From Pseudomonas sp. FP2196 (GTDB lineage Bacteria; Pseudomonadota; Gammaproteobacteria; Pseudomonadales; Pseudomonadaceae), in assembly GCF_030687715.1 (NCBI RefSeq), contig NZ_CP117445.1:1546501-1610500 (forward strand): DNA of 64,000 nucleotides, given 5' to 3'. Of the stretch, positions 47,673 to 64,000 are shown one piece after another. Position 1 is the first letter of the stretch. The number at the start of each line of letters is the position of its first letter. Below the pieces are notes generated by a model, which worked only from the letters and a program-made list of their open reading frames with translations, did no database searches and was not told the DNA's origin. The position numbers were made by a program, and so were the translations under genes.

Positions 47673-47688
47673 GGTCTAACCAGAAATG

Positions 47689-48477: not shown

Positions 48478-48926
48478 GTGATCTCTTGCATTCCATGTCT
48501 CCGTCGTTGGGCATTGCTCTTGCCGATCAGCCTATCCACCGCCCTTCAGCCTGTCGCTACCGGCCCTTTGCCCAAGTCGTTGCAATCCATGTCCCACGCT
48601 GGTTATAGTCGGCGCTCGTGAGCCAGACGACTCACGTTCAAAATCCTTCAAAAAAGATCAGCCCAAATGCCTGCATCCCTCATCAACGCGGTAGTCGATT
48701 CAGCGGTCAGCGCTGGCGTCGTGCCGTGCGGGAATCAGCAGCCCGGGCAGATCAGTCATTACCCCCCACCTGTCAGTAGCACGCCGGTGTGCGCAGTCGT
48801 ATCACCGCCGGGCGTTGGCGTTTCGGGCTGATCGGCAGTTTCTGCTGACCCCTGTGCCCGCCGGAAAAACCTACTGAATTTCAGCTTCGGCTGAGTTGGC
48901 TATTTGCCTGACTACAGGTGGTATTC
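48478..48926. other. Gap before the EamA transporter gene
   Basis: 449 bp between the divergent GNAT-like and EamA genes. It holds a possible 54-codon gene (48667-48831) and no clear repeat or terminator. The composition is mixed and lower in GC than the flanks. Confidence 0.5.
48667..48831 (+). CDS. Possible small peptide gene
   Basis: An open frame of 54 codons starts at ATG 48667. The predicted peptide has a helical N-terminus (SLINAVVDSAVSAGVV) and a Pro- and Val-rich tail with two cysteines (SHYPPPVSSTPVCAV... ). It lacks a clear ribosome site. It could be a chance frame. I do not recognise the family. Confidence 0.3.
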   Translation: MPASLINAVVDSAVSAGVVPCGNQQPGQISHYPPPVSSTPVCAVVSPPGVGVSG

Positions 48927-49790
48927 ATGTTTGTCCTTTCGAAAAAGTCTGCGCTCGCGGCGACGTCCACGAGCCTGTTCGTTCTACTGTGGAGCAGTGG
49001 GGCGATTTTCTCCAAATGGGGCTTGGCCCACGCGTCACCGTTTGCCTTTCTGCTGATTCGCTTTGCCATTGCCCTGTGCGGGTTGGTGCTGCTGATTCCG
49101 TTGCTCAAGCTGAAGTTGCCCAAGGGCGGCAGGCCGATGCTGTTTGCGATTGCCACGGGTGTGGTGTTGTTGGGGGCGTATCAGATTTTCTATCTGCTGG
49201 CCCTCAACACCAAAGTCACCCCGGGGGTGATGGCGACCATCATGGGCGTGCAACCGATTCTCACGGTGGTGTTGATGGAGCGGCAGCGCTCGGCCAGCCG
49301 GATGTTCGGGCTGGCACTAGGGTTGGCCGGTCTGATCATGGTGGTGTATCAGGGGATCGGTCTGGCCGGGATGTCGTGGGCGGGGATGCTGTTCGGTTTG
49401 CTGGCGCTGGCGAGCATGACCCTTGGTTCAATCATGCAGAAGCGCATCACCGACAATCCTCTCGGCACGCTGCCGGTGCAGTATCTGGCCGGACTGTTGT
49501 TGTGTGGGATCTTCGTGCCGTTCCAGCCGTTTTATTTCGAGCACAGCGCGGGTTTCATCGTGCCGGTGTTGTGGATGGGGCTGGTGGTCTCGGTGCTGGC
49601 GACGCTGTTGCTGTATCGGCTGATCGCGCGGGGCAATCTGGTGAATGTCACCAGCCTGTTTTATCTGGTGCCGGCGGTGACGGCGGTGATGGACTACCTG
49701 ATTTTCGGTAATCGTCTCGCCGCTCTCAGCGTCTTGGGCATGCTGCTGATCATCGTCGGTCTGGCATTCGTCTTCCGTAAAACAGTGTAA
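48927..49790 (+). CDS. EamA/DMT-family transporter
   Basis: The 287-residue protein has ten hydrophobic helices in two EamA repeats (about 10-140 and 150-285), with WSSGAIFSKWGLAHASPF at the start and the second repeat ending IIVGLAFVFRK. This family exports amino acids or other small metabolites; the substrate is not shown. ATG 48927 is preceded by AGGTGG; a GTG 9 bp earlier is possible. A terminator follows. Confidence 0.86.
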   Translation: MFVLSKKSALAATSTSLFVLLWSSGAIFSKWGLAHASPFAFLLIRFAIALCGLVLLIPLLKLKLPKGGRPMLFAIATGVVLLGAYQIFYLLALNTKVTPGVMATIMGVQPILTVVLMERQRSASRMFGLALGLAGLIMVVYQGIGLAGMSWAGMLFGLLALASMTLGSIMQKRITDNPLGTLPVQYLAGLLLCGIFVPFQPFYFEHSAGFIVPVLWMGLVVSVLATLLLYRLIARGNLVNVTSLFYLVPAVTAVMDYLIFGNRLAALSVLGMLLIIVGLAFVFRKTV

Positions 49791-49796
49791 ACCGCA

Positions 49797-49827
49797 AAAG
49801 GCCCGGAGCCTGTCTCCGGGCCTTTTT
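49797..49827. terminator. Terminator between EamA and LysR genes
   Basis: AAAAGGCCCGGAG, loop CCTGT, CTCCGGGCCTTTTT forms a 9-bp stem with a T run, at the convergent 3' ends. Confidence 0.92.
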
Positions 49828-50768
49828 CATTTGCTCAACGCATGCTCGGCCCGCACCGAATTCATGAACGCCTGCATCGCCGAGGACTGAATACGGTGGC
49901 GTCGGGTAATCAGACCGAACGGTGGCAATCGCGCTTCAAACTTGATCGGCAGCACCGCCAGCAGGTCTCGACCGGGATAGTCCTCGACCACCGACACCGG
50001 CGTTACGCCGAGCATGTCGGTCTGCTGGATCAATGACAGCAAGGTCATGATCGAGGTGGTTTCGACGATGCTGCTGGGGATGTCGACCCGGGCGTTGTGG
50101 AACACCTGATTGATGATCGCGCGCATCGGACTCGGTTGCTGTTGCAGCACCCAGGTCATGTTTTGCAATTCTGCCCAGCTGAGGTTTTTCTCTTTCGCCA
50201 GCGGGTTCTGCGCGCCGGCAATCACGCACAAGGCTTCTTCGCCGAGACTGTCGAAGAGCAATTCTTCGGCCCGCGCTCCGGCGGGAATTCGCCCCAGCAC
50301 GATGTCCAGTTGATCCTGTAGCAGCGCTTGCACGAGCACGTCGCTGGTGTCGACCTGAATGCTCATTGATAACCGTGGATGGCTTTGCTTCAAGGTCGCG
50401 ATAGTCCGCGTCAGCAACCCCGAGGCCAGCGCCGGAATCGCCCCGACCGCAACCCGTCCGAGATTGCCCGACTCCAGCGCCACCAATTCTTCACGCATGC
50501 CGCTGAGTTCGGCGAAGACCATGCGCGCGTAATAGATCACCGTCTCGCCGAAGGGCGTCGAGCGCATGCCTCGGGGCAGGCGCTCGAACAGTTCGACGCC
50601 GAGCAAATCTTCGGCCTCGTGCAGCATTTTGGTCGCCGCCGGTTGAGTCATGCCGATGTGGTCGGCGGCGCGGCGCAGCGAGCCGAATTCCTGCAACGCC
50701 AGCATCAGCCGCAACTGGCGCAGACGCAGGCGGCTGTGGATCACGTTGGCATCAGGAATTCGGGTCAT
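49827..50768 (-). CDS. LysR-family regulator of the sugar-acid locus
   Basis: The 313-residue protein has its helix-turn-helix at about residues 14-73 (LRLRQLRLMLALQEFGSLRRAADHIG...PAATKMLHEAEDLLG) and an effector domain from about 97 to 300. It is related to the GbpR/CbbR-type branch. It lies 67 bp downstream of tctA on the same strand, so it is the last gene of the tctCBA operon or has its own promoter near a perfect palindrome (50800-50820). The neighbourhood makes it the likely regulator of tctCBA and of the catabolic genes. The ligand is unknown. Confidence 0.9.
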   Translation of the reverse strand: MTRIPDANVIHSRLRLRQLRLMLALQEFGSLRRAADHIGMTQPAATKMLHEAEDLLGVELFERLPRGMRSTPFGETVIYYARMVFAELSGMREELVALESGNLGRVAVGAIPALASGLLTRTIATLKQSHPRLSMSIQVDTSDVLVQALLQDQLDIVLGRIPAGARAEELLFDSLGEEALCVIAGAQNPLAKEKNLSWAELQNMTWVLQQQPSPMRAIINQVFHNARVDIPSSIVETTSIMTLLSLIQQTDMLGVTPVSVVEDYPGRDLLAVLPIKFEARLPPFGLITRRHRIQSSAMQAFMNSVRAEHALSK

Positions 50769-50799
50769 GGGCCGTGCTCGCGAAAAAGACAGGTGGCCA

Positions 50800-50820
50800 G
50801 CCTGACAACAAATGTCAGGC
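50800..50820. promoter_or_regulatory. Perfect palindrome before the LysR gene
   Basis: GCCTGACA, five-base centre ACAAA, TGTCAGGC: both 8-bp arms pair exactly. It lies between tctA and the regulator gene. No T run follows, so it is more likely an operator or an RNA processing hairpin than a terminator. Confidence 0.5.
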
Positions 50821-50835
50821 AGTGCCAGTCCTGTG

Positions 50836-52365
50836 TCACAGCACCGATTTTGGCTTGGCCGCAGAAGGCTTGCGCAAACCGACCATGACTTGCAGCGCCT
50901 TGGAGATCAACGGCCAGAACAGCATCAGCAACGCCGCCGTGGTCAGGCAGCCCACCAACGGGTTGGACCAGAAGATCCCCAAGTGTCCGTCGGAGAACAG
51001 CATCGATTGGCGGAACGCATCTTCAGCCTTGTCGCCCAGCACTGCCGCAAGCACCAGCGGCGCGATCGGGTAGCCGAGTTTCTTGAACAGATAACCCAGG
51101 GCGCCGAAGCCGAGCATCAGCACCACATCGACGAACGAGTTGTGCACCGAGTAGGCACCGATGGCACAGACCATGATGATGATCGGCGCGATGATCGAGA
51201 ACGGAATGCGCAGGATCGAGGCGAACAACGGCACGGTGGCCAACACCACGATCAGGCTCACCACGTTGCCCAGGTACATGCTGGCGATCAGGCCCCAGAC
51301 AAAATCGTGCTGCTCGACGAACAGGGTAGGGCCAGGGTGCAGACCCCAGATCATCAAGCCGCCGAGCATCACCGCTGCGGTGGCCGAACCGGGAATGCCC
51401 AGGGTCAGCATCGGCAGCAATGCGCTGGTGCCGGCGGAGTGGTCGGCGGTTTCCGGAGCGATCACGCCTTCCAGTTCACCTTTACCGAAGTTGTCGCGAT
51501 TCTTCGAAAAACGCCGCGCCAGGCTGTAGCTCATGAACGAAGCCGCCGTCGGCCCACCGGGAGTGATGCCCATCCAGCAACCGACCAACGTGCTGCGCAC
51601 AATGGTCAGCCAGTAACGCGGCAGTTTTGCCCAGGTACGCAGGATTACCATCGGTGTGATGCGCGCATGTTCGCCGCGAAACACCAGACCTTCTTCCACC
51701 GTGCAGAGGATTTCACCGATGCCGAACAGTCCGATCACCGCCACTTCGAAGCTGATCCCGGTCATCAACGCGGGTTGGTCGAAGGTCAGGCGCAGGTTGC
51801 CGGACACGGTGTCCATGCCGACGGCCGCCATGGCGAAACCGATCATCATCGCCACCACGGTTTTCAGTGGTGGGTTCTTGCTCATGCCAATGAACGTGCA
51901 GAAGGCCAACAGGTATACCGCAAAGAATTCCGGTGAGCTGAAGGACATGGCGAACGCGGCGATCTTGGTCGACAGGAACGTCAGCAACAACACGCCGGCC
52001 AGTGCGCCGATCAGCGCCGAACTGAACGCGGCGGTGAGGGCTTCGGCGGCGCGGCCTTCACGGGCCATCGGGTAGCCGTCGAAGGTGGTCGCCACCGATG
52101 ACGGCTCACCGGGGATGTTGAACAGAATCGAGGTGATCGACCCGCCGAACAACGCCCCCCAATACATGCACGACAACAGGATAATCGCCGACACCGGCGA
52201 CATGGTGAAGGTCAGAGGCAGCAGCAACGCAACGCCGTTGGGGGCGCCGAGGCCGGGCAACACACCGACCAGAATGCCCAGCAGCACGCCGATCACCATC
52301 AGACCGATGTGGCCCGGGGTCATGATCAGGTTCATGCCTTGCATCAGGGAATCGAATTCGCTCAT
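50836..52365 (-). CDS. tctA: Tripartite tricarboxylate-type transporter, large membrane subunit TctA
   Basis: The 509-residue protein has about twelve membrane helices and the TctA signatures GVLPGLGAPNGVALLLPLT and GITPGGPTAASFMSYSL with the later LPMLTLGIPGSATAAVMLGG. It is the main ion-coupled permease of a tripartite carboxylate uptake system. I set the start at 52365 (MSEFDSLMQGMN), which overlaps tctB by 4 bp; an upstream part of the frame runs inside tctB. The substrate could be a citrate-like acid or, from the genes nearby, a sugar acid. Confidence 0.93.
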   Translation of the reverse strand: MSEFDSLMQGMNLIMTPGHIGLMVIGVLLGILVGVLPGLGAPNGVALLLPLTFTMSPVSAIILLSCMYWGALFGGSITSILFNIPGEPSSVATTFDGYPMAREGRAAEALTAAFSSALIGALAGVLLLTFLSTKIAAFAMSFSSPEFFAVYLLAFCTFIGMSKNPPLKTVVAMMIGFAMAAVGMDTVSGNLRLTFDQPALMTGISFEVAVIGLFGIGEILCTVEEGLVFRGEHARITPMVILRTWAKLPRYWLTIVRSTLVGCWMGITPGGPTAASFMSYSLARRFSKNRDNFGKGELEGVIAPETADHSAGTSALLPMLTLGIPGSATAAVMLGGLMIWGLHPGPTLFVEQHDFVWGLIASMYLGNVVSLIVVLATVPLFASILRIPFSIIAPIIIMVCAIGAYSVHNSFVDVVLMLGFGALGYLFKKLGYPIAPLVLAAVLGDKAEDAFRQSMLFSDGHLGIFWSNPLVGCLTTAALLMLFWPLISKALQVMVGLRKPSAAKPKSVL

Positions 52366-52895
52366 TTGAAGTTTCTCCCGGCGAGGGCGATCCAGTCGCC
52401 CATCGGGCCGGCATCCAGCGGCACCTTGAACCACAGCGCGAAGATCAGATAACTGGCGAGCACCGCGCCGAGCGAGACGCTGCCGATCATCCATTTGCCA
52501 TAGGGTTTTACGCGTACTTTGTCGCGCCACATGAACCAGGCAATGAACGCCGCCGAGGCCACGTAAATACCGGTGAATGGCATGGCCGCGACGAACAGGG
52601 CGATCGGCAGGAACACCGAAAACACTTGCCGAAACGCGCTGCGGCTGACGAACGCAATGCTCATGGCCTGCCAGCGCACCACGGTCAGAATGCCGTTGGC
52701 CACGCTCGCGCCACTGAGCATCAGGCCGATGTAGAAGGGGAAGTAACCCGGCTCAGGGCCGGCGTCACCCCAGCCGATGCCTTGTTCAAGGCTGCCGTAC
52801 ATCACCACTGCGCCAATCAGCGTGGTGAACAGGGTCAGGCCGAGTTCGACCCAACGGGTGCTGACCAGCGCCGGTAAATCCGAAGAATGGGACAT
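52362..52895 (-). CDS. tctB: Tripartite transporter, small membrane subunit TctB
   Basis: The 177-residue protein has four membrane helices (about 15-35, 47-65, 85-105 and 140-160) and the family pattern YFPFYIGLMLSGASVANG. It partners TctA. The ATGA overlap with tctA shows co-translation. The gene begins 53 bp behind tctC. Confidence 0.9.
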   Translation of the reverse strand: MSHSSDLPALVSTRWVELGLTLFTTLIGAVVMYGSLEQGIGWGDAGPEPGYFPFYIGLMLSGASVANGILTVVRWQAMSIAFVSRSAFRQVFSVFLPIALFVAAMPFTGIYVASAAFIAWFMWRDKVRVKPYGKWMIGSVSLGAVLASYLIFALWFKVPLDAGPMGDWIALAGRNFK

Positions 52896-52948
52896 GAAAC
52901 ACCTCCAGCAGGTGACGGCCGCACCTTATCGGGCGGCCGTGGACGACC

Positions 52949-53962
52949 TCAGTTTTTCAGCCAGCCGGCTTCCTTGAACACCGGCGTGACACGAGCGGTG
53001 TCTTGCTCGATGTACGCGGTCAGCGGCTCGCCTTCGAGGAAGGTCGGCACCAGCGCGTTCTGTTTCACGTAGGCCTGAAACTCGGGGGTCTGGGTGACTT
53101 TGCGCATCAGCTCGACATAGAACCCGCGCTGTTCGGCGGTGACATCGCCCGGCATGAAGACGGTGCGCGGGAAGCGATATTGATCGATACCCAGGCCCTG
53201 CTCGTGGCAGGTCGGTACATCCGCCCAGGATTTGTCGCCAGCGACTTTTTCGGTGTAGGCCATGCGCTCTTTACTGAACACGCACAGCGGCTCGATCTGA
53301 TCGCCACGCCATTGGCTGATGCTTTCGCTGGGATTGTTGACGTTGGCGGCGATGTGCTTGCCGGCCAGTTGCGTGGCGGCTTCGCTGCCGCTCTTGAACG
53401 GGATGTACACCAGTTTGCTGTTGTTGGTCTGATTGAGCAGCAGGGTCAGGGTCTGGTCGACGTCCTTGGACTGGCTGCCGCCCATGCGCAGTTTCGACGG
53501 GTCAGTTTTCACCGCCTCATAGAAGCCCTTGGCGTCTTTCCAGGGTGCGTCTTTGTAGCTCCAGAGAATGAAGTCATCCTCGGCAACGGCGGCCACCGGG
53601 GTCAGTTCCTGCCATTGATAGCCGAGCTTGGACACCAGCGGCAGCAGGTAGATGTTGTTGGTGCCGATCACCAGTTTTTCCGGATCGCCCTTGTTCATTT
53701 TCAGGTCGAGGAACGCTTCGGCGCCGTTGCCGCCGCCCTTGTTGAGGACGATGGTGTTGACCTCAAGAAACTTGTGGGTGGTGATGATCGACTGGATCAG
53801 GCGACCGAGCTGGTCGGTGCCGCCACCGGGGCCGCCGGCAACAACGATCTCGACGTTCTTGTCCGGTTGCCAGGCGTAGGCGAGGGAGGGGATGACACCG
53901 GCCGCGAGCAGGGCAGAACCCAGCAGCAGACGGGAGGTGCGACGGACGAATGCAGTACGCAT
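52949..53962 (-). CDS. tctC: Tripartite transporter, periplasmic binding protein TctC
   Basis: The 337-residue protein has a signal peptide (cut near AYA, residue 30) and the Bug-type receptor fold: VEIVVAGGPGGGTDQLGRL near the start and the AANVNNPSESISQW segment. These receptors bind carboxylates or sugar acids and deliver them to TctAB. The first gene of the minus-strand operon, it faces the catabolic genes across a 378-bp gap with two operator-like motifs. I used ATG 53962 (MRTAFVRRTSRLLLG). Confidence 0.92.
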   Translation of the reverse strand: MRTAFVRRTSRLLLGSALLAAGVIPSLAYAWQPDKNVEIVVAGGPGGGTDQLGRLIQSIITTHKFLEVNTIVLNKGGGNGAEAFLDLKMNKGDPEKLVIGTNNIYLLPLVSKLGYQWQELTPVAAVAEDDFILWSYKDAPWKDAKGFYEAVKTDPSKLRMGGSQSKDVDQTLTLLLNQTNNSKLVYIPFKSGSEAATQLAGKHIAANVNNPSESISQWRGDQIEPLCVFSKERMAYTEKVAGDKSWADVPTCHEQGLGIDQYRFPRTVFMPGDVTAEQRGFYVELMRKVTQTPEFQAYVKQNALVPTFLEGEPLTAYIEQDTARVTPVFKEAGWLKN

Positions 53963-54079
53963 GGGAGGCCTCATTCTTGTAGTTGTTATGAGTGACTTGT
54001 CTGCGCTCGAAAGCCGCAAGCCTGGCCTGAGTGTGGGAAGGTATGACGGCGGCGTCTACTCAAAACAAAACATACACCG

Positions 54080-54094
54080 ATAGCCTGGGGTTAT
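54080..54094. promoter_or_regulatory. LysR operator candidate, site 1
   Basis: ATAGCCTGGGGTTAT, with CG on each side, has the T-N11-A core of LysR boxes with an imperfect dyad (ATAgCC/GGtTAT). It matches site 2 in inverted orientation at 14 of 15 positions. Confidence 0.6.
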
Positions 54095-54208
54095 CGCTCG
54101 GGCGCCGATCAATCACCCAAACGTGGGGCAGACTTTGAAGCAGAGCGTTTTAGGCGCACATTCATCGTCATGGCTGGCGTTGTAAGCCTGATGAAAGATC
54201 GGCATGGC

Positions 54209-54223
54209 ATAACCCGAGGCTAT
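54209..54223. promoter_or_regulatory. LysR operator candidate, site 2
   Basis: ATAACCCGAGGCTAT; its reverse complement ATAGCCTCGGGTTAT equals site 1 except for one central base. It lies 117 bp upstream of the MFS start and is oriented opposite to site 1. Confidence 0.6.
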
Positions 54224-54340
54224 CGCCTGATTTCAAGTTTTGATTAGACGGTTATCGCACGGCCTTCGATAGTGCCCACCGGATGCCGCGAAACAGCGGC
54301 GTGGCAACACCCACAAAAATAATAAAACGAGGTACGCACC

Positions 54341-55681
54341 ATGGCTCGTCCCAGTGCTTCCCTGCACCTGCCTGTCGCAGGTGCCCTCCCGACGGCAGCG
54401 GCGGCTGCGCTGACCGCCAGCAACAAGGCTAGCAACGTGCGCTGGCGGATCTTTGCGATTGTCTTTGCCCTGACCATGGTCAACCTGATCGACCGCGTGT
54501 CGTTGTCGATTGCGATGCCGACCATCGCTACCGAATTTTCCCTGTCGCCGAGTCTGCAAGGCTTGATCCTCAGCAGTTTCTTCTGGGCCTATGCGTTGTT
54601 GCAGATCCCCGGCGGCTGGCTGATCGACCGTTACGGGCCGCGCCGGGTCATCACCTGGTCAACCGGTTTGTGGGGCACCTTTCAGGTGTTGGCGGCATTC
54701 GCCACCGGTGGCCTGTCGCTGCTGTTTGCGCGGGTCGCGCTCGGTGCGGCGGAAGCGCCATTGTTCCCGTCCGGCGGCAAACTGATTTCCCTGTGGCTGG
54801 CCCCCGGGGAGCGCAGTCGCGGCGCGGTGTTGATGGACAGTGGCAGCCCGTTGGGCGTGGCGCTGGGCGGTTTGATCATCGCTTACCTGATTGCTTCGCT
54901 GAACTCCTGGCGCCTGGCGTTCGTGATCGCCGGTATCGCCACTTTGGTGTTGGCGTGGCTGGCCTGGCGTTATCTGCGCGACGATCCAGCCTGCCACCCG
55001 CAAGTGAATGCGGCGGAGCTGGAAAAGATCAACGCCGGCCGCGCCACGCCTGCTGCCGAAGCGGCGCGGGCACCGGTCAAGGGCCTGGGCATTGCCGCAC
55101 GTTCCCTCAGTGGTTTGCTGCTCGGGCGGGCCAGTTGGGCGATGGTCTATTTCGGTCTGCTGACTTGGGGGCCGACCTATTTGTCCCAGGCGCGCGGCTT
55201 CGATATCAAGGGCATTGGTTTCGCCACGTTTGTGATTTTTGTCTGCGGCGCGCTCGGCTCGCTGACCGGTGGTTTTCTCTGCGACGGGCTGATCCGCAAA
55301 GGCGTCAGCCGTGGTGTGGCAGTCAAGAGTCTGTTGGCGTTTTCCGGGCTGATCGCGCTCGGCGCGTTCCTGCTGCTGCCGACCTTGAGCAACCCTGTTG
55401 CGGCGGTGGCGCTGTTGGCCATGACCGCGTTTTTCCTGATGTGGGGCAGCCTCTACTGGAGCTTCCCGGCGCTGCTCGCGGCACCGGCGCGGGTCGGCTT
55501 GATCGGCGGGGTGATGAACATGGCCGGCAGCGTCGGCGGGATTACTGTGCCGATTCTGGTCGGCGTGATCCTGCAAATGACCGGCGGGTTCGCCCCGGTA
55601 CTCGGTTTCTTCGCAGTGTGTTCGGCGGTGTTTGTGCTGGCCACGCTGTTCATTGCACTGGACGAGGTGCGCCATGACTGA
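54341..55681 (+). CDS. MFS transporter, ACS (sugar-acid) type
   Basis: The 446-residue protein has twelve membrane helices and the MFS loop PGGWLIDRYGPRRVI, with DRVSLSIAMPTIATEF in helix 1, as in the anion:cation symporter family that moves hexuronates, glucarate and galactonate. It is the head of the plus-strand catabolic genes; the downstream lactonase and sugar-acid enzymes suggest a sugar acid or its lactone as cargo. It overlaps the lactonase gene by 8 bp. Confidence 0.87.
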   Translation: MARPSASLHLPVAGALPTAAAAALTASNKASNVRWRIFAIVFALTMVNLIDRVSLSIAMPTIATEFSLSPSLQGLILSSFFWAYALLQIPGGWLIDRYGPRRVITWSTGLWGTFQVLAAFATGGLSLLFARVALGAAEAPLFPSGGKLISLWLAPGERSRGAVLMDSGSPLGVALGGLIIAYLIASLNSWRLAFVIAGIATLVLAWLAWRYLRDDPACHPQVNAAELEKINAGRATPAAEAARAPVKGLGIAARSLSGLLLGRASWAMVYFGLLTWGPTYLSQARGFDIKGIGFATFVIFVCGALGSLTGGFLCDGLIRKGVSRGVAVKSLLAFSGLIALGAFLLLPTLSNPVAAVALLAMTAFFLMWGSLYWSFPALLAAPARVGLIGGVMNMAGSVGGITVPILVGVILQMTGGFAPVLGFFAVCSAVFVLATLFIALDEVRHD

Positions 55682-56642
55682 GCAGAACCGCCCGCTGTGG
55701 GACGGCCCGATCATCGATGCCCATCAGCACTTCTGGGATCCGGCAATCAACGATCACCCGTGGCTTGCGCCCGAGGCCAACGTCCCGTTTCGCTATGGCG
55801 ATTACAGCGCGATCAAGCGCCGCTATTTTCCCGAGGATTACTTCGCCGACGCGGCGCAGCACCAAGTGGTGCAGACCGTCTACATCGAGACCGAATGGAA
55901 CCCGCAGGACCCGATCGGCGAGACCCGTTTCATCGAACAACTGGCCGCCCGTTATGGTGTGCCGAACGCGGTGGTGGCTCAGGCGTGGCTCGATCATCCG
56001 GACGCCATTGACGTGCTCACCGAGCAGGCGCGCTTCAAGCATGTGCGCAGCGTGCGGCACAAACCCGGCGGGCCGACGTCGCCTGCGCAAGTCGGGCGTT
56101 CGCGCAGCCTGATGAGCGACGAGCACTGGCGGCGCAGTTACGCCGCGCTGCAAGGTTTGGGGTTGCACTTCGATTTGCAGACACCGTGGTGGAACCTGCC
56201 GGAAGCCGAGCGACTGGCCCGGGATTTCCCCGGCACCACGCTGATCCTCAACCACGCCGGCCTGCCCAGTGACCGCAGCGCCGAAGGTCTGGCCGGTTGG
56301 CGCACAGCCATGGCGCGACTGGCCGAGTACCCGAACGTACAGGTGAAGATTTCCGGCCTCGGTCAGGCTGGCCGCGCGTGGCGGGCCATCGACAACGCAT
56401 GGATCGTGCGCGAGATCATCGCCATGTTCGGCAGCACGCGGGCGATGTTCGCCAGCAACTTCCCGGTCGACAGCCTGTGCGGCTCGTTCGACAGCATTTA
56501 CAGCGGTTTCAAACACATCGTCGCCGATCTGCCGCAGGCCGATCAGCAATGTCTGTTCTACAGCAACGCGCAGCGGGTTTATCGCTGCGAACCTGGTGTC
56601 CTTGAGCGGGCCGGGTCTGAGCCTTTGAGGAGTCAAGCATGA
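55674..56642 (+). CDS. Amidohydrolase-fold lactonase (COG3618 type)
   Basis: The 322-residue TIM-barrel hydrolase has the HxH metal motif at His17-x-His19 (IIDAHQHFWDP), TVYIETEWNP and a late NFPVDSLCGSF segment with the last metal Asp. This group includes L-fucono- and L-rhamnono-lactonases, which open sugar lactones to acids. Its place before sugar-acid enzymes makes a lactonase role likely. It overlaps the MFS gene by 8 bp and pdxA-like by 4 bp, which indicates one transcript. Confidence 0.85.
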   Translation: MTEQNRPLWDGPIIDAHQHFWDPAINDHPWLAPEANVPFRYGDYSAIKRRYFPEDYFADAAQHQVVQTVYIETEWNPQDPIGETRFIEQLAARYGVPNAVVAQAWLDHPDAIDVLTEQARFKHVRSVRHKPGGPTSPAQVGRSRSLMSDEHWRRSYAALQGLGLHFDLQTPWWNLPEAERLARDFPGTTLILNHAGLPSDRSAEGLAGWRTAMARLAEYPNVQVKISGLGQAGRAWRAIDNAWIVREIIAMFGSTRAMFASNFPVDSLCGSFDSIYSGFKHIVADLPQADQQCLFYSNAQRVYRCEPGVLERAGSEPLRSQA

Positions 56643-57643
56643 ACAAAACCACGATCGCCATGGTACTCGGTGACCCGGCGGGCATCGGCCCGGAACTGAT
56701 TGCGCGGTTGCTCGGCGAGCCGGCGGTGCGCAGTCAGGCGCAGGTGATTCTGATCGCCGATGAAGCCGAGATGCAGCGCGGCATGCGCATCGCCGGCGTG
56801 GAGTTTCCCTATCGCCGGATCGAGTCGCTGGAACAACTGGACTTTGCCGATGACACGCCACTGTTCTACAACATGCGCGGCGATACGGTAGGCGAGTTTC
56901 CCCGCAGCGAAGCCAGCGCCATCGGCGGCCGTTACAGCCTCGATACGCTGGAAATCGCCCTGCGTCTGACCCAGGCGGGCAAAACCGACGCGGTGCTGTT
57001 TGGGCCGCTGAACAAAACTTCGCTGCACATGGCCGGCATGGCCCACAGCGACGAGCTGCACTGGTTCGCCGAACTATTGGATTTCCACGGGCCGTTCTGC
57101 GAGTTCAACGTGCTCGACAACCTGTGGACGTCGCGAGTGACCTCTCACGTGGCGCTGGCCGATGTGCCGGGGCTGCTCAGCCAGGAGCGGGTGGGTGAGG
57201 CGATCCGCCTGATCGACACCGCGCTCAAACGCAACGGCCTGGAGAAACCGCGCATTGGTGTGTGTGGCCTCAACCCGCACAACGGCGACAACGGCTCGTT
57301 CGGTCGCGAAGAGCTGGACATTATCGGCCCGGCGGTGCGCACCGCTCAGGCTCAGGGCATCGCGGCGGAAGGGCCTTATCCGGGCGACACGATTTTCCTC
57401 AAGGTGCAGGGCGACGCCAGCGCATTTGATGCCGTGGTCACCATGTATCACGACCAGGGCCAGATCGCGATCAAACTGATGGGCTTCTCCCGTGGGGTGA
57501 CGGTGCAGGGTGGTCTGCCGATCCCGATCACCACCCCGGCCCATGGCACCGCGTTTGATATTGCGGGGCAGGGCAAGGCCAACGTCGGCGCGATTCGCCA
57601 GGCGTTCGAGATTGCCTGCCGGATGGGTGCCAACAGCTACTGA
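56639..57643 (+). CDS. PdxA-family dehydrogenase (PdxA2-like)
   Basis: The 334-residue NAD-dependent dehydrogenase has the family start GDPAGIGPEL and metal histidines His170, His214 (NPHNGDNG) and His271 (YHDQGQ). From memory of E. coli PdxA, the substrate-contact Asn283 and Arg292 are here Thr (GFSRGVT) and a non-Arg residue (GGLPIPITTPAHGTA), so it may not bind the usual phosphate. Classical PdxA2 works with a DtnK-type kinase, which is absent nearby. The role may be dehydrogenation of an unphosphorylated acid or diol, for which PdxA-family TphB is a precedent. Not the biosynthetic pdxA by context. Confidence 0.82.
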   Translation: MNKTTIAMVLGDPAGIGPELIARLLGEPAVRSQAQVILIADEAEMQRGMRIAGVEFPYRRIESLEQLDFADDTPLFYNMRGDTVGEFPRSEASAIGGRYSLDTLEIALRLTQAGKTDAVLFGPLNKTSLHMAGMAHSDELHWFAELLDFHGPFCEFNVLDNLWTSRVTSHVALADVPGLLSQERVGEAIRLIDTALKRNGLEKPRIGVCGLNPHNGDNGSFGREELDIIGPAVRTAQAQGIAAEGPYPGDTIFLKVQGDASAFDAVVTMYHDQGQIAIKLMGFSRGVTVQGGLPIPITTPAHGTAFDIAGQGKANVGAIRQAFEIACRMGANSY

Positions 57644-57673
57644 TCTGCGATCTTCAGAACAACATCACATCTC

Positions 57674-57763
57674 CTGTGGGAGCGAGCCTGCTCGCGAAAG
57701 CGGTGTGTCAGACAGCATCAATGTCGACTGACACACTCTCTTCGCGAGCAGGCTCGCTCCTGT
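57674..57763. repeat. REP doublet with T-run (may terminate)
   Basis: Inverted arms GGAGCGAGCCTGCTCGCGAA and TTCGCGAGCAGGCTCGCTCC, with inner GTGTGTCAG/CTGACACAC also pairing. The right arm is followed by TGTTTTTTT, so the hairpin could end the lactonase/PdxA-like transcript. Confidence 0.85.
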
Positions 57764-57815
57764 TTTTTTGTGTGCAGCCCTGATAACCCTATCTGGACAT
57801 AAACCGCGTTCAGCG

Positions 57816-57830
57816 ATCACCGCAGGTTAT
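57816..57830. promoter_or_regulatory. LysR operator candidate, site 3
   Basis: ATCACCGCAGGTTAT, flanked by CG on both sides, agrees with ATAGCCTSGGGTTAT at 11 of 15 positions and keeps the T-N11-A core. It lies 146 bp before the dehydratase start. GATAACC at 57782 is an extra half site. Confidence 0.45.
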
Positions 57831-57975
57831 CGCCGGATACGCATAAGTGATTATCCGCAGTCCCCGGGCGCTGGCTAAAGTCGGTCCATCGAATGCCCGG
57901 TACCGGCCACACGAACGGTTCTGCGCAGCGACTCTAACAACTACAAGAAACCGGCAGCGCAAGGAAACCGTATTC

Positions 57976-59151
57976 ATGAAAATCAAAGCGATCCGTACCC
58001 GCGTCTTCGAATGGAAAGGCAAAGTCGTGCCACCGCAGGCGCACTTTTGCACCAACGCTAGCGATATCCTTTTTGAGCGTGGTGATGCCATGGGCTCGTT
58101 CCGTTTCCACGGTTGGCTGGTGGTGGAAATCGAAACCGACACCGGTCTGGTCGGCATCGGCAACTGCGCCCTGGCACCCCGTGTGGCCAAGGAAATCATC
58201 GACACCTATCTCGCCCCGATCGCCATCGGCGAGGACCCGTTCGACAACGAATACATCTGGCAGAAGATGTACCGCCAAAGCCATGCCTGGGGCCGCAAAG
58301 GCATCGGCATGGCGGCGATCTCGGCCATCGATATCGCCATCTGGGACATCATGGGCAAAGCGGTGAACAAACCGGTGTTCAAACTGCTCGGCGGGCGCAC
58401 CAAGGAAAAGATCTGGACCTACGCCTCCAAGCTCTACGCCAATGACAACCTCGACCTGTTCCTTGAAGAGGCGCAGGGCTATCTGAACCAGGGGTTTACC
58501 GCGCTGAAAATGCGTTTCGGCTACGGCCCGAAAGACGGCCCGGCCGGCATGCGCAAGAACATCGAACAAGTGCGCGCCCTGCGTGAACTGGCCGGCCCGG
58601 ACATCGACATCATGCTCGAGTGCTATATGGGCTGGACCCTTGAATACGCCCGCCGGATGCTGCCCAAACTGGCCGAGTTCGAACCGCGCTGGCTGGAAGA
58701 GCCGGTGATTGCCGACGACATCGAAGGCTACATCGAGCTGAAAAAGATGGGCATCATGCCGATCTCCGGCGGCGAGCACGAATTCACCTCCTACGGCTTC
58801 AAAGACCTGCTGGAGCGCCGTGCCGTCGACGTGATCCAGTACGACACCAACCGCGTCGGCGGCATCACCGCCGCGCGCAAGATCAACGCCATGGCCGAGG
58901 CCTGGTCGGTGCCGGTGATCCCCCACGCCGGGCAGATGCACAACTACCACCTGACCATGTCCACTACTGCCTCGCCGATGGCCGAGTTCTTCCCGGTATT
59001 CGACGTCGAAGTCGGCAACGAACTCTTCTACTACGTCTTCAAGGGCGAGCCACAACCGGTCAACGGCTATATCCAGCTGGACGACAACACGCCGGGCCTG
59101 GGCCTGGAAATCTCCGATGAATACTTGAGCGACTTCAACATCATCGAGTGA
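57976..59151 (+). CDS. Enolase-superfamily sugar-acid dehydratase (RhmD-like)
   Basis: The 391-residue protein has the two-domain mandelate-racemase/enolase layout: an N-terminal capping domain (1-130) and a TIM barrel. Visible active-site residues are Lys178 and Arg180 (ALKMRFGYG), metal acids Glu215 (LECYMGW), Glu241 or 242 (WLEEPV), Glu267 (SGGEHEF), and the base His317 (IPHAGQ). It resembles L-rhamnonate dehydratases and other acid-sugar dehydratases, making a 2-keto-3-deoxy acid. With AraD1 and a semialdehyde dehydrogenase behind it, a pentonate (such as L-lyxonate or D-arabinonate) is a fitting substrate; this is inference. Confidence 0.87.
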
Positions 59152-59205
59152 TCCGACGGGCGTCGCCTGCGGGCGGCGCCCTCCATGCATTTCCGGAGGC
59201 CGCAC

Positions 59206-60201
59206 ATGCGCCTGATTCAATTTGAAAACACCGCCGGCCAGCGCCACGTCGGGCTCGTCGAGGGCACGCAGGTTCACGTCGTGCGCAACACCGTCAGCAC
59301 CCGCGAACTGGCGCTGGCGGCGATTCGTGCCAGCCACGGTCTGCAAGAGCAAGTCGCCCTGCGCGGCACTGAGCGTGGCCCCGAATACGCCGAGCTGATG
59401 CAACAGGGTCGCGTCCTGCCGCCGCTGGATCATGAAGATCCGGCGCATTGCCTGATCAGTGGCACCGGCCTGACCCATCTGGGCAGCGCCTCGGCCCGGG
59501 ACAAAATGCACCAGCAGGACGGCGCCGTCGAAGCGGGCATGACCGACACCATGCGCATCTTCAAGTGGGGCATCGAGGGCGGCAAACCGGCGGCCGGTGA
59601 AGTCGGCGCGCAGCCGGAATGGTTCTACAAGGGCGACGGCAATATCGTCGTACGCCCCGGCGCGGACTTCCCGGTACCGCCGTTTGCCGAAGACGCGGGC
59701 GAGGAGCCAGAGCTGGCCGGCCTCTACGTGATCGGCGATGACGGTCTGCCGTATCGCCTCGGTTATGCACTGGGCAACGAGTTTTCCGACCACGTCATGG
59801 AACGGCGCAACTACCTGTATCTGGCCCATTCCAAATTGCGCTTCTGCGCCTACGGCCCGGAGTTGCGGGTCGGCGCGTTGCCCACCGATCTGTCTGGCAC
59901 CAGCCGCATCCTGCGCGACGGTGAAGTGCTGTGGGAGAAGCCGTTCCTCAGTGGCGAAGACAATATGTGCCACAGCCTCGCCAACCTCGAATTCCATCAC
60001 TTCAAATACGCGCAGTTTCTGCGTCCCGGCGATGTCCATGTGCATTACTTCGGCACCGCCACGCTGTCGTTTGCCGACGCTATCAAGACCCGCCCCGGCG
60101 ACCGTTTCCAGATCAGCCTCGACGCGTTCGGCGCGCCGCTGGAAAACGGCATCGGCGAAAGCGCCCAGCCGCTGGCCATCGGTCAGGTACGTGCGCTGTA
60201 A
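59206..60201 (+). CDS. AraD1/GguC-family 2-keto-3-deoxypentonate dehydratase
   Basis: The 331-residue protein belongs to the fumarylacetoacetate-hydrolase superfamily, AraD1 (GguC) branch. It has GTGLTHLGSASARDKMH (substrate loop) and EDNMCHSLANLEFHHFKYAQF with acidic metal ligands. AraD1 members dehydrate 2-keto-3-deoxy-pentonates to 2-oxoglutarate semialdehyde. The ATG at 59206 follows GGAGG by 8 bp. It is 54 bp behind the dehydratase and 24 bp before the next gene, in one operon. Confidence 0.87.
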   Translation: MRLIQFENTAGQRHVGLVEGTQVHVVRNTVSTRELALAAIRASHGLQEQVALRGTERGPEYAELMQQGRVLPPLDHEDPAHCLISGTGLTHLGSASARDKMHQQDGAVEAGMTDTMRIFKWGIEGGKPAAGEVGAQPEWFYKGDGNIVVRPGADFPVPPFAEDAGEEPELAGLYVIGDDGLPYRLGYALGNEFSDHVMERRNYLYLAHSKLRFCAYGPELRVGALPTDLSGTSRILRDGEVLWEKPFLSGEDNMCHSLANLEFHHFKYAQFLRPGDVHVHYFGTATLSFADAIKTRPGDRFQISLDAFGAPLENGIGESAQPLAIGQVRAL

Positions 60202-60225
60202 CGCCCAATTGTTTGAGGAATTGCC

Positions 60226-61806
60226 ATGACATCGCTACTGGGTCACAACTACATCGGCGGCCGCCGCAGCGCCCAAGGCAGTGTGCCGTTGCAAAGTCTC
60301 GACGCCACAACGGGTGAGGCGCTGCCGGGGCATTTCGTCCAGGCCACCGAAGCCGAGGTGGACGCTGCTGCCAAAGCCGCCGCCGCTGCCTACCCGATTT
60401 ACCGCAACCTCAGCGCGGAAAAACGCGCGTCATTCCTCGACGCGATTGCTGATGAAATCGATGATCTCGGCGATGAGTTCGTCGCCACCGTTTGCCGCGA
60501 AACTGCTTTGCCCGCCGCGCGTATTCAAGGCGAGCGCGGGCGCACCAGCGGCCAGTTGCGGCTGTTTGCCAACGTCCTGCGGCGGGGGGATTTCTATGGG
60601 GCACGGATTGATCGGGCGTTGCCTGAGCGTCAACCGTTGCCACGTCCGGATCTGCGCCAATACCGCATTGCCCTCGGCCCGGTGGCGGTGTTCGGCGCGA
60701 GCAACTTTCCGCTGGCGTTTTCCACTGCCGGTGGCGACACCGCCTCTGCGCTGGCCGCTGGTTGCCCGGTGGTGTTCAAGGCCCACAGCGGCCACATGGC
60801 CACTGCCGAATGGGTGGCGGACGCGATCATCCGTGCCGCCGAACGCTGCGCAATGCCTGCCGGTGTATTCAACATGGTGTACGGCGGCGGAGTCGGCGAA
60901 TGGCTGGTCAAACATCCGGCGATTCAGGCCGTGGGTTTCACCGGTTCGCTCAAGGGCGGCAATGCCCTGAGCCAGATGGCCGCGAGCCGCGCGCAACCGA
61001 TCCCGGTGTTCGCCGAGATGTCGAGCATCAATCCGGTGTTTTTGCTGCCCGAGGCGCTGGACGTGCGCGGCGAGCAGATTGCTGCGCAACTGGCCGGTTC
61101 GGTGACGCTGGGTTGCGGGCAGTTCTGCACCAATCCCGGTCTGGTGATCGGTTTGCGTTCGCCGCAGTTCAGCACGTTTGTCCGGCGCTTCTGCGCCAAC
61201 ATGAATGGCCAACCGGCGCAGACCATGCTCAATGCCGGCGCCTTGGCCAGTTACAGCAAAGGCCTTGGCGAATTGCACGAGCATCCGGGGTTGTCGCACC
61301 TGGCCGGTCATCCGCAGCAAGGCAATCAGGCTCAGCCGCAGGTGTTTCAGGCACACGTCAGCCTGTTGCTCAACGGCGATGCGTTGTTGCAGGAAGAAGT
61401 CTTCGGCCCGACCACCATCATCATTGAAGTGGAGGATCAGGCGCAGTTGGCGCAAGCGCTGCAAGGTTTGCGCGGGCAACTGACGGCGACGTTGATCGGT
61501 GAGGCGGGGGAGTTGCTGGAGTACCGCTGGCTGGCTGAACAGTTGCAGGAAAAGGTCGGGCGGATTCTGTTTAACGGTTACCCGACCGGAGTCGAAGTGT
61601 GCGAGGCGATGGTGCATGGCGGGCCGTATCCGGCGACCTCGGATGCGCGCGGGACGTCGGTGGGGACGCTGGCGATTGATCGGTTCCTGCGGCCGGTGTG
61701 TTTCCAGAATTACCCGGATGCAATGCTTCCCGAGGCGTTGCAGGACGCTAATCCGCTGGGGATCCGGCGGTTGGTGGATGGGGAGGTGAGTGCGGCTGCG
61801 TTGTGA
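60226..61806 (+). CDS. 2-oxoglutarate semialdehyde dehydrogenase
   Basis: The 526-residue aldehyde dehydrogenase has Asn160 (GASNFPLAF), Glu264 (VFAEMSSINP) and the nucleophile Cys301 (CGQFCTNPG), with Lys185 contacting the cofactor. The length and motifs match the long 2,5-dioxovalerate (alpha-ketoglutarate semialdehyde) dehydrogenases, which prefer NADP or NAD and complete pentose and sugar-acid breakdown to 2-oxoglutarate. It is the last gene of the operon; a REP doublet lies beyond its stop. Confidence 0.93.
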   Translation: MTSLLGHNYIGGRRSAQGSVPLQSLDATTGEALPGHFVQATEAEVDAAAKAAAAAYPIYRNLSAEKRASFLDAIADEIDDLGDEFVATVCRETALPAARIQGERGRTSGQLRLFANVLRRGDFYGARIDRALPERQPLPRPDLRQYRIALGPVAVFGASNFPLAFSTAGGDTASALAAGCPVVFKAHSGHMATAEWVADAIIRAAERCAMPAGVFNMVYGGGVGEWLVKHPAIQAVGFTGSLKGGNALSQMAASRAQPIPVFAEMSSINPVFLLPEALDVRGEQIAAQLAGSVTLGCGQFCTNPGLVIGLRSPQFSTFVRRFCANMNGQPAQTMLNAGALASYSKGLGELHEHPGLSHLAGHPQQGNQAQPQVFQAHVSLLLNGDALLQEEVFGPTTIIIEVEDQAQLAQALQGLRGQLTATLIGEAGELLEYRWLAEQLQEKVGRILFNGYPTGVEVCEAMVHGGPYPATSDARGTSVGTLAIDRFLRPVCFQNYPDAMLPEALQDANPLGIRRLVDGEVSAAAL

Positions 61807-61826
61807 TTGGCGTTGTTTGAACTGAC

Positions 61827-61897
61827 GCCATCGCGAGCGGGCTCGTTCCTACAGTTGGAACGCATTTCCCTGTAGGAGTGAGCCTGCTCGCGATGGC
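61827..61897. repeat. REP doublet (TGTAGGARYGAGCCTGCTCGCGATGGC)
   Basis: Inverted arms GCCATCGCGAGCGGGCTCGT and TGAGCCTGCTCGCGATGGC with TCCTACA/TGTAGGA inside flank a 17-bp centre, between the convergent dehydrogenase and EamA genes. Confidence 0.85.
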
Positions 61898-61917
61898 AAT
61901 TTCAGTTGCACGCTGTG

Positions 61918-62826
61918 CTAACGGGCCGCCACCTCAGCTGACTTCACCACCGCCGGCTTCAACACCAGCCACAACGCCAGTGCGATCAACACCCCGCCAT
62001 ACAGATGCGCCATCGACAACGGCTCATCGAGCAACAGCGCCCCCCACAACACACCGAACGCCGGGATCATGAAGGTCACGGTCATCGACTTCACCGGGCC
62101 GATGGAGCTGAGCAGACGGAAGTAAATGATGTAGGCGAACGCCGTACAACCCAGGCCCAGCCCAAGCAGCGACAGCCAGACATTCCAGCCGCCCCAGCTG
62201 GCCGGTGGCGAGGTGATCACGCTGTAACCGAACAGCGGCAACAGGAACACAGTCGCCCCGAGCATGCTGCCCAGTGCCGACAAGCGGCTGTCCAGCCCGC
62301 CGGCCTGATCCAGCCAGCGTCGCGCGAGGAATCCTGCGAAGCCGTAACAGGTGGTCGCCAGCAGGCAGGCGAAGGCGCCCATCAGCAGTTCGAGATCGAA
62401 GGCCACAGGACCTGCGCGCGTCAGCACGCCGACGCCGAACAACCCCAGAAACACGCCCGTCAGCTTGGCGACGGTGAGTTTTTCGCTGAAGAACAACCCG
62501 CCAATCAGCACGCCCATCAATGGCGTGGTGGCGTTGAAAATCGCCGAGTAACCCGCCGGCAGCACTTGCGCCGCCACCGAATAGAACGTCGCCGGAATGC
62601 CTGAGTTGATCACGCCCAGCAACATCACGGTTTTCAGCTTGCCCTTGAAATCCCAGCTGATCCGCATCAGCCCAAGGATCACCAGCAGACCGACGGCCGC
62701 AATCGACACACGGAAGAACGCCGTCGGAATGGTGCCGATCACCGGCGCAATAATGCGCATGAACAGGAAGCTCGCGCCCCAGATGGCTGCCAGCGACAGC
62801 ATGCGGAAAATATCGACGGGGCTCAC
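61918..62826 (-). CDS. EamA/DMT-family transporter
   Basis: The 302-residue protein has ten hydrophobic helices in two EamA repeats, beginning MLSLAAIWGASFLFMRIIAPVIG and ending LYGGVLIALALWLVLKP. It is an inner-membrane exporter-like protein of unknown substrate. It is convergent with the semialdehyde dehydrogenase gene and so is not part of that operon; divergent from aceK. Typical length for the family (about 300). Confidence 0.87.
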   Translation of the reverse strand: MSPVDIFRMLSLAAIWGASFLFMRIIAPVIGTIPTAFFRVSIAAVGLLVILGLMRISWDFKGKLKTVMLLGVINSGIPATFYSVAAQVLPAGYSAIFNATTPLMGVLIGGLFFSEKLTVAKLTGVFLGLFGVGVLTRAGPVAFDLELLMGAFACLLATTCYGFAGFLARRWLDQAGGLDSRLSALGSMLGATVFLLPLFGYSVITSPPASWGGWNVWLSLLGLGLGCTAFAYIIYFRLLSSIGPVKSMTVTFMIPAFGVLWGALLLDEPLSMAHLYGGVLIALALWLVLKPAVVKSAEVAAR

Positions 62827-63053
62827 GGTGGTGCTCCTTGCTTGATCGGGACGAGAGTGTTGCCGAGCGCCTTAACGATGGCAACCGCTAATCGGGCATT
62901 TAATTTGGGTCTGACCGGTCCATTGTTTACGCCGGCAACCAATAATCCCAGCCGTGTGCAACCACGACGCGGTTTTGGCAGAAATTGCACTTCTCCTCAG
63001 GCCGGTTCCGTGGCTAAGCTCAAGCATTCCGAATGCACGCAGAGGTTTCATCT

Positions 63054-64000
63054 ATGCCGCAGCCATGGCCAGCCACCGACATCGCCCGCATGATCCTCGC
63101 TGGCTTCGACGACTATCGCGAGCATTTCCGCCGGATTACCGACGGCGCCCGGGAGCGATTCGAGCAGGCGCGCTGGCAGGAGATTCAGACGGCGTCGGCG
63201 GCGCGGATCAACCTCTATGAAGAAAAGGTCGGCGAAACCATCGCCCGGCTGCGTGAGTATTTCGACGACGAAACGCTGATGGACGTCAGTTGCTGGCCGT
63301 TGGTGAAAAGCGCCTACATCAGTGTTATCGACCTGCGCTTCGACGATGAGCTGTCCGAGACCTGGTACAACTCGATTTTCTGTGGGCTGTTCAGCCATGA
63401 CCTGATCAGCGACGGCTGCATGTTCATCCACACCACCCGGCCGAGCCTGCGCCGCGCCCGGGCCGCGCAAACCCGTACGTACAAGCCGCAAGGCCAATTG
63501 TCCGGGATGCTTGCAAGCATTTTCGCCGACTACCGCTTCAGCGAGGATTACGCCGATTTGCCGGGCGACTTGCTCAGGCTCGAAGCACAACTGCGCGAGA
63601 ACCTGCCGGACTGGGTGTGCAAGGATCCGGAACTGAGTGTCGAGCTGTTTTCTTCGGTGCTGTACCGCAACAAGGGCGCGTATCTGGTCGGGCGCATCTA
63701 CACCCGTGACGAACAGTGGCCGCTGGTGATTCCGCTGCTGCACCGCGAAGGTCGCGGGATTCAGATCGACGCGCTGATCACCGACGAAGCCGATGTGTCG
63801 ATCATCTTCTCCTTCACCCGCTCGTATTTCATGGTGGATGTGCCGGTGCCGGCGGAGTTCATCGGCTTCCTGCGGCGGATCCTTCCGGGCAAGCACATTG
63901 CCGAGCTGTACACCTCGATCGGCTTCTATAAACACGGCAAGTCCGAGTTCTACCGGGCGCTGATCAATCACCTGGCTAACACCGACGACCAGTTCATCAT
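63054..64000 (+). CDS. aceK: Isocitrate dehydrogenase kinase/phosphatase AceK, N-terminal part
   Basis: The first 315 codons of AceK are present; the gene runs off the right edge (the full protein is about 570 residues). The regulatory domain opens with [20 protein letters not shown] and holds [14 protein letters not shown]; the kinase domain begins near the window end with [15 protein letters not shown]. AceK switches isocitrate dehydrogenase between active and phosphorylated forms to route carbon to the glyoxylate bypass. ATG at 63054 follows AGAGG. It stands alone, not with aceBA, as usual in Pseudomonas. Confidence 0.95.

Follow-up and report, generated by a model that had tools for sequence, protein, structure and literature searches.

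A putative free-standing lower half of bacterial L-ascorbate catabolism in Pseudomonas sp. FP2196

The degradation of L-ascorbate in Ralstonia eutropha H16 is reported, in the 2020 work of Stack and colleagues, to start with a cytochrome b561 followed by a lactonase of the SMP-30 type, after which a WD40-like enzyme reportedly performs a benzilic-acid rearrangement to 2-carboxy-L-lyxonolactone. Next, an amidohydrolase-superfamily lactonase and a PdxA-family decarboxylase with catalytic NAD+ are said to act, and L-lyxonate is then converted to 2-oxoglutarate. From the gene neighbourhoods described below, we infer that the WD40-like rearrangement enzyme corresponds to the YncE-like protein (hereafter YncE) of such loci. 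Here, we analyzed a stretch of 64,000 nucleotides (the window), positions 1546501-1610500 of the 6.24-Mb single-contig genome of Pseudomonas sp. FP2196, which contains a cluster of ten genes predicted to serve the uptake and catabolism of a sugar acid. We lean, with somewhat more confidence than doubt, towards the reading that this cluster represents the lower part of the L-ascorbate pathway occurring on its own, and that it would scavenge branched C6 acids formed spontaneously from dehydroascorbate in the plant apoplast.

Published papers describe the use of L-ascorbate by R. eutropha as sole carbon source via a novel pathway (PMC7873064), refer to the chemistry of the ascorbate pathway as unusual (PMC11066805), name a COG4948 enzyme as a requirement of an ascorbate pathway (PMC10444878) and report growth of Pseudomonas aeruginosa PAO1 on L-lyxonate (PMC6336799). 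According to two further papers, dehydroascorbate breaks down to a pair of epimeric lactones and a single open acid, for which two names are synonymous (PMC6225978), and branched acids are proposed to form in the plant apoplast and are described as interconvertible but otherwise relatively stable (PMC5398285). The rearrangement is also said to proceed non-enzymatically (PMC11066805, PMC5398285). Because the branched lactones and the acid are proposed to arise in the apoplast and are called relatively stable, we read the cluster as one that takes these compounds up. In the literature on L-lyxonate, branched acids and ascorbate catabolism, we found no description of the common form that is devoid of YncE and combines TctCBA with the lactonase type seen here (a-type, see below).

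The ten genes fill positions 49827-61806 of the window, as judged from open reading frames and Pfam support. TctC, TctB, TctA and LysR are located on the minus strand, with LysR last, while the plus strand encodes, in this order, an MFS transporter, a COG3618 protein, PdxA, a dehydratase, an AraD1 protein and an aldehyde dehydrogenase; both arms diverge from the shared intergenic region at 53963-54340. The Pfam families observed among the ten proteins are LysR, TctA, TctB, TctC, MFS_1, Amidohydro_2, PdxA, MR_MLE N/C and Aldedh. The starts of TctA (about 52365), TctC (about 53962), the lactonase (55674) and the dehydratase (57976) were refined by eye, and the reading frames of the lactonase and PdxA overlap by 4 bases (56639-56642). 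An earlier reading of the window from the sequence only had named these genes at 49827-61806, and all of them were supported by Pfam or NCBIfam matches, as follows.

49827-50768, minus strand: LysR-type regulator, last gene of the tct side (Pfam HTH_1 and LysR_substrate; detected over the score threshold at 39 of the 50 Pseudomonas loci described below)
50836-52365, minus strand: TctA permease (Pfam TctA, 488.9 bits)
52362-52895, minus strand: TctB membrane subunit (Pfam TctB, 53.6 bits)
52949-53962, minus strand: TctC solute-binding protein, which may bind the branched dicarboxylate or lactone (Pfam TctC, 53.2 bits)
53963-54340, no strand: divergent promoter region with a candidate LysR operator (conserved blocks and pattern scans)
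54341-55681, plus strand: MFS transporter, probably of the anion:cation symporter type (Pfam MFS_1, 180.4 bits; best NCBIfam model 2A0114, the D-galactonate transporter subfamily, 234.4 bits, under its cut-off of 395)
55674-56642, plus strand: COG3618 amidohydrolase-superfamily lactonase of the a-type, proposed 2-carboxy-L-pentonolactone lactonase (Pfam Amidohydro_2, 156.7 bits)
56639-57643, plus strand: PdxA-family enzyme, proposed 2-carboxy-L-lyxonate decarboxylase (Pfam PdxA, 286.8 bits)
57976-59151, plus strand: enolase-superfamily dehydratase, proposed L-lyxonate dehydratase, LyxD (matches to 3stp, 3ssz and 3sqs)
59206-60201, plus strand: AraD1/GguC family protein, proposed 2-keto-3-deoxy-L-pentonate dehydratase (NCBIfam GguC, 547.5 bits, cut-off 340)
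60226-61806, plus strand: aldehyde dehydrogenase, proposed 2-oxoglutarate semialdehyde dehydrogenase (Pfam Aldedh; 3v4c and 1eyy)

With the Stack-type L-ascorbate pathway, the locus would share the lactonase, the PdxA decarboxylase, the L-lyxonate dehydratase, the keto acid dehydratase and the semialdehyde dehydrogenase, but it contains no gene for cytochrome b561, YncE or SMP-30, its lactonase belongs to a sister clade of the YncE-linked one, and it carries its own TctCBA and MFS uptake genes. In the L-lyxonate pathway of P. aeruginosa PAO1, the keto acid dehydratase is reportedly of the dihydrodipicolinate-synthase type, as compared to the AraD1 type in the window. The three steps from L-lyxonate to 2-oxoglutarate would otherwise be common to both (the PAO1 pathway as reported by Ghasempur and colleagues, 2014), whereas the window locus adds the lactonase and PdxA upstream.

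The dehydratase matched the PDB entries 3stp, 3ssz and 3sqs with 623-627 bits over essentially the entire protein, as compared to 208 bits for the next PDB match. These entries are themselves titled galactonate dehydratase or mandelate racemase-like; we take them to represent the L-lyxonate dehydratase group of the enolase superfamily in the sense of the 2014 work of Ghasempur and colleagues, and propose from the homology that the window dehydratase belongs to this group. Close relatives of it occur in Pseudomonas species. No Pfam match was obtained for the AraD1 protein; its NCBIfam score of 547.5 bits to GguC/AraD1 exceeds the cut-off of 340, and we propose, at the family level, an assignment as a 2-keto-3-deoxypentonate dehydratase. 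For the aldehyde dehydrogenase, the best NCBIfam match had 108 bits against a cut-off of 770, all 25 models shown of 40 were under their cut-offs, and the nearest solved structures were 3v4c (448 bits) and 1eyy (427 bits), so that the label of 2-oxoglutarate semialdehyde dehydrogenase is proposed from homology and context. The homologies of these three enzymes fit the earlier suggestion of a sugar-acid locus that would end in the route from a pentonate to 2-oxoglutarate. The classical galactarate/glucarate pathway was considered and rejected, since none of the ten genes is of the dihydrodipicolinate-synthase type and the closest structures to the dehydratase are 3stp, 3ssz and 3sqs.

For PdxA, 14 PDB sequences were matched at E 1e-20, five of them in printed alignments of 148-191 bits. 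The window protein has Thr288, Ile297 and Ala301 where all five printed relatives have Asn, Arg and Asp, of which Asn and Arg presumably bind phosphate. Among the fetched loci, 83 PdxA frames scored above 250 bits, a set that contains the copies from the window itself, and 81 of them show the Thr288 pattern. Histidines 170, 214 and 271, which we take to be metal-binding, are invariant in the alignment of six. PdxA would act on an unphosphorylated acid, and its gene is linked to that of the proposed L-lyxonate dehydratase. Because the genome encodes a second PdxA elsewhere, 32% identical to the first, the locus PdxA is probably dispensable for vitamin B6. The D-threonate and erythronate pathways (PdxA2 with a DUF1537 kinase) likewise employ a PdxA-family dehydrogenase in sugar-acid catabolism, but in the window locus the Asn and Arg are replaced, and a Pfam scan of the ten locus proteins detected no kinase family (the rest of the genome was not searched for a kinase); a phosphorylated substrate handled in the manner of PdxA2 was rejected on these two grounds. 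Terephthalate genes offer another likeness in that a PdxA-family dihydrodiol dehydrogenase (4aty) acts there on an unphosphorylated acid beside a Tct-type transporter, but the substrate is aromatic and the window PdxA matches 4aty with only 111 bits. The evidence supports the earlier suggestion that the PdxA-like step is an extra reaction beyond the classical pentonate route.

The substrates and reactions in this strain, as well as the specificity of transport and the regulation, are all inferred, and the scheme would run as follows. 2-Carboxy-L-pentonate or its lactones would form without enzymes from dehydroascorbate via 2,3-diketogulonate and be imported by TctCBA and/or the MFS protein. 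The COG3618 enzyme would open the lactone to 2-carboxy-L-lyxonate (which is the same as 2-carboxy-L-xylonate). PdxA would oxidise C3, the beta-keto acid would drop one carboxyl, and re-reduction would give L-lyxonate without consuming NAD+ overall. From L-lyxonate, the dehydratase would then make 2-keto-3-deoxy-L-pentonate, AraD1 would convert this to 2-oxoglutarate semialdehyde, and the aldehyde dehydrogenase would produce 2-oxoglutarate. The sequence-only reading had left the combination of genes unassigned; it instead matches the lower part of the reported L-ascorbate pathway, continued by the reported L-lyxonate pathway. Nor do we retain the plain pentonate that had been suggested as entry compound, which on the ascorbate-type reading would be a branched C6 dicarboxylate or lactone, with L-lyxonate as an intermediate.

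Co-occurrence was examined across 298 genomes drawn from the genus Pseudomonas, in counts that ignore relatedness. PdxA (E 1e-90) was detected in 42 of them, TctC (E 1e-100) in 41 and COG3618 proteins (E 1e-50) in 43, including 40 of the window type (at least 499 bits) and three genomes (G164, G211, G232) with other types only. Neither TctC nor the window-type lactonase was ever found outside the 42 PdxA-positive genomes. The lactonase overlaps or abuts PdxA in 36 of the 40 genomes and is 47-56 bases away in the other 4, and in 37 genomes TctC lies at most 5 kb from PdxA in divergent orientation, with 2 genomes where it is farther away and 2 where it is on another contig. The two halves of the locus thus stay together across Pseudomonas, as had been anticipated, and because the block recurs in other genomes, we do not consider it a chance assembly.

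We also compared the neighbourhoods of the dehydratase in other genomes. A scan of named genomes with a six-sequence dehydratase alignment gave at least 571 relatives. We retained the best 80 for comparison, of which 50 belong to Pseudomonas and 30 to other genera. All ten genes were above the score limits in 22 of the 50 Pseudomonas loci; taken singly, PdxA was counted in 46, three genes (for the a-type lactonase, TctC and AraD1) in 41 loci each, the MFS transporter in 34 and the aldehyde dehydrogenase in 33; some fetched loci end at a contig end, and elsewhere an uncounted gene may lie outside the stretch or be absent. For example, L037 was scored without PdxA, which is situated just beyond the fetched stretch. 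The 30 other loci contained PdxA (27), the a-type lactonase (9), a dihydrodipicolinate-synthase-type protein (17), AraD1 (2) and no TctC. YncE was present in 6 of the 50 Pseudomonas loci and 2 of the 30 others, and a second lactonase, of the b-type, in exactly these 8. Five Pseudomonas loci combine the window-type lactonase, PdxA and the dehydratase with YncE and the second lactonase, two of them also with b561 and SMP-30. Annotated plasmid loci of Variovorax, Paraburkholderia graminis and Sphingomonas hold PdxA and the dehydratase together with b561, SMP-30 and YncE, and that of Sphingomonas also AraD1.

Two of three Pseudomonas loci with a solitary dehydratase (among L048, L049 and L054) have, among the searched families, only LysR and another MFS gene beside it, and such dehydratase-only loci look as if they use L-lyxonate alone. 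Three Cupriavidus loci (L067, L080, L086) contain PdxA, the dehydratase, a dihydrodipicolinate-synthase-type protein and an aldehyde dehydrogenase, whereas neither YncE nor SMP-30 nor b561 was found in their fetched stretches. No b561 match was obtained in C. necator UYPR2.512, the genome of L067 (YncE was not searched there), although the ascorbate user known from the literature, R. eutropha, is also C. necator.

We failed to find a rearrangement enzyme in the window's genome. The sole YncE match, with all 18 candidates scored, was a partial one of 45 bits to an unrelated 640-aa propeller protein of the YVTN type, and none was obtained at E 1e-50. Cytochrome b561 gave no match among 47 of 47 scored candidates, with a first model that held no Pseudomonas row. 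No SMP-30/gluconolactonase was identified by Pfam among the ten locus genes; elsewhere in the genome, outside the window, one protein matched the locus-linked SMP-30 model with 275 bits and three with at most 53 bits. The 275-bit protein has a twin-arginine-like start (by eye), is apparently exported, and is encoded beside an unrelated-looking membrane protein gene (by eye). It scored 182 bits against the SMP-30 protein of P. graminis, as compared to 244-489 bits for locus-linked ones from other species.

In the genus, where the YncE and b561 searches scored only about 7-8 candidates per genome as compared to full scoring of the window's genome, YncE (E 1e-50) was found in 5 of the 298 genomes: three PdxA-positive ones (G147, G164, G181) with 537-562 bits and two PdxA-negative ones with about 300 bits. 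This leaves 39 of the 42 PdxA-positive genomes, the window's included, without YncE at that threshold. As controls, G147 and G164 (537 bits) are independent of the YncE model, while G181, by its coordinates apparently the genome of L052, contributed a row. In G164, YncE and the b-type lactonase occur without TctC and without the a-type lactonase. On the same scale of search, b561 was detected in none of the 298 genomes, YncE-holding ones included, with a model that had two Pseudomonas rows; in a control, 3 of 7 chosen genomes matched, of which L060 and L061 had given rows to the model and L071 (338 bits) was independent.

A tree of 42 COG3618 proteins was split by a single branch (SH-aLRT 100) into an a-type (31 rows) and a b-type (11 rows), in a quick maximum-likelihood analysis without bootstrap in which several rows are long and long branches meet. 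It kept 19 of the 49 Pseudomonas loci L014-L062, leaving out L037, a b-type holder, and the group names were assigned by best query match. The a-type rows mostly adjoin PdxA, and 10 of the 11 b-type rows come from YncE-holding loci. The window lactonase is 39-40% identical to the YncE-linked lactonase, and ten positions are at least 95% fixed within each group yet differ between them (50 a-type versus 11 b-type frames, with loci L001, L120, L068 and L083 left out). It is therefore plausible that the window lactonase acts on a different lactone or a different epimer. At E 1e-50, no b-type lactonase was found in the window's genome. Two further COG3618 proteins are encoded in tandem at L120:7367-11100 (G100:C1:about 3428366-3432099), a second locus that is present in 13 of the 298 genus genomes, 11 of which also have the window-type PdxA. 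The tandem proteins are 46-49% and 38-41% identical to the window lactonase, and in the one locus examined, one groups with the a-type and the other with the b-type. The pair precedes a similar aldehyde dehydrogenase, with a TRAP transporter receptor and a CoA-transferase nearby.

Several observations weigh against a stand-alone lower half of the ascorbate pathway. The specificity of TctC cannot be read from its sequence. The window lactonase is of the right superfamily (Amidohydro_2), but its clade is a sister to that of the YncE-linked lactonase, and it may act on a different lactone. No COG3618 protein was found in the fetched stretches of Variovorax, Sphingomonas and Phaeobacter, and the loci with upper genes and without COG3618 are L004, L006 and L008. 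A Caballeronia plasmid locus has PdxA and the dehydratase without upper genes, and the dehydratase genes of L048, L049 and L054 have no PdxA, lactonase or Tct genes in their vicinity. To this are added the small numbers of candidates scored in the genus-wide searches. Furthermore, b561 was not found even in the YncE-holding genomes L037, L052 and L076, so that its absence is by itself no evidence against ascorbate use. Finally, the missing homologues may be compatible with an unrelated rearrangement enzyme, or with spontaneous rearrangement after uptake of dehydroascorbate or diketogulonate.

The best alternative, which we nevertheless judge unlikely, is that the strain degrades L-ascorbate or dehydroascorbate itself. 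It would take up dehydroascorbate or diketogulonate, the rearrangement would happen inside the cell either spontaneously or through a non-homologous enzyme, and the same lower steps would follow. The lower enzymes are the same as in loci with upper genes, the missing b561 does not speak against it, and the 275-bit SMP-30 protein could be part of such a route, as could a rearrangement that is reported to occur without an enzyme too (PMC11066805, PMC5398285). On the other hand, no YncE orthologue was found in the genome, nor in 39 of the 42 PdxA-positive genomes, and the SMP-30 protein is far from the locus and less similar to that of P. graminis than the locus-linked ones are. The limits of the census, taken together with the absence of b561 from YncE-holding genomes, shift a slight weight from the scavenging of branched acids to this alternative.

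Ranking next, and also improbable, is the entry, via the lactonase and PdxA, of some other dicarboxylic sugar acid (branched or beta-hydroxy) whose origin is not ascorbate and which would still yield L-lyxonate or a related pentonate. The a-type lactonase forms a separate clade with ten clade-specific residues, and it pairs with PdxA without YncE both in Pseudomonas and in Caballeronia/Paraburkholderia loci; however, other Pseudomonas carry close relatives of this PdxA and of this dehydratase alongside YncE, and the product of the PdxA step should therefore match. A plain pentonate pathway (L-lyxonate, L-arabinonate or D-xylonate) with PdxA in a side reaction is very improbable, for while the last three enzymes would suffice to convert a pentonate to 2-oxoglutarate and L048 and L049 show only the regulator, MFS and dehydratase among the searched families, the lactonase and PdxA matches keep their close spacing in all 40 genomes and PdxA is retained in 46 of the 50 Pseudomonas and 27 of the 30 other dehydratase-fetched loci.

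If the cluster does scavenge branched acids from dehydroascorbate, it would constitute a biological sink for these compounds in plant cell walls, and a function could be proposed for the lactonase-PdxA pair, which bears only general names in the annotation records examined. The presence of PdxA and the dehydratase must then not be read as ascorbate use, given the 39 of 42 genomes in which no rearrangement enzyme was found. A broader idea, which we put forward tentatively and with more doubt than belief, is that many Pseudomonas carry a dedicated scavenging pathway for spontaneously formed vitamin C debris, the 2-carboxy-L-lyxonolactone and 2-carboxy-L-xylonolactone epimers of the plant apoplast. 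The PdxA-linked a-type and the YncE-linked b-type lactonases would each open one epimer to the same acid, and the lower module would form a common core with entry points at three depths, namely L-lyxonate alone, the branched acid and its lactones, or ascorbate.

The LysR protein probably controls both operons. When 31 loci, that of the window among them, were aligned, the divergent region showed conserved blocks. This region contains four GGYTATCG half-sites, and a fifth is located at 57825-57832, upstream of the dehydratase gene. Two of the half-sites form CGATAG-N7-TTATCG with T-N11-A spacing at 54078-54096. This strict palindrome occurs once in the window and is kept in only 4 of 124 fetched loci, and the LysR operator is for that reason only proposed. 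Across the window, GGYTATCG occurs more often than in shuffled sequence (12 versus 1.9), with 7 of the 12 outside the locus, while promoter-like and terminator-like sites are barely above shuffles, if at all (1 versus 2.5 and 16 versus 11.4). No Rfam match was obtained within 46000-64000. The gap between PdxA and the dehydratase (57644-57975) contains an inverted repeat at about 57676-57766 (gggagcgagcctgctcgcg) that we take to resemble a Pseudomonas REP element, and an additional MFS gene occupies this position in 11 of the 50 Pseudomonas loci. Elsewhere in the window, at 37199-41059, an MFS gene is followed by frames that resemble the 5-oxoprolinase subunits PxpA, PxpB and PxpC (named by eye).

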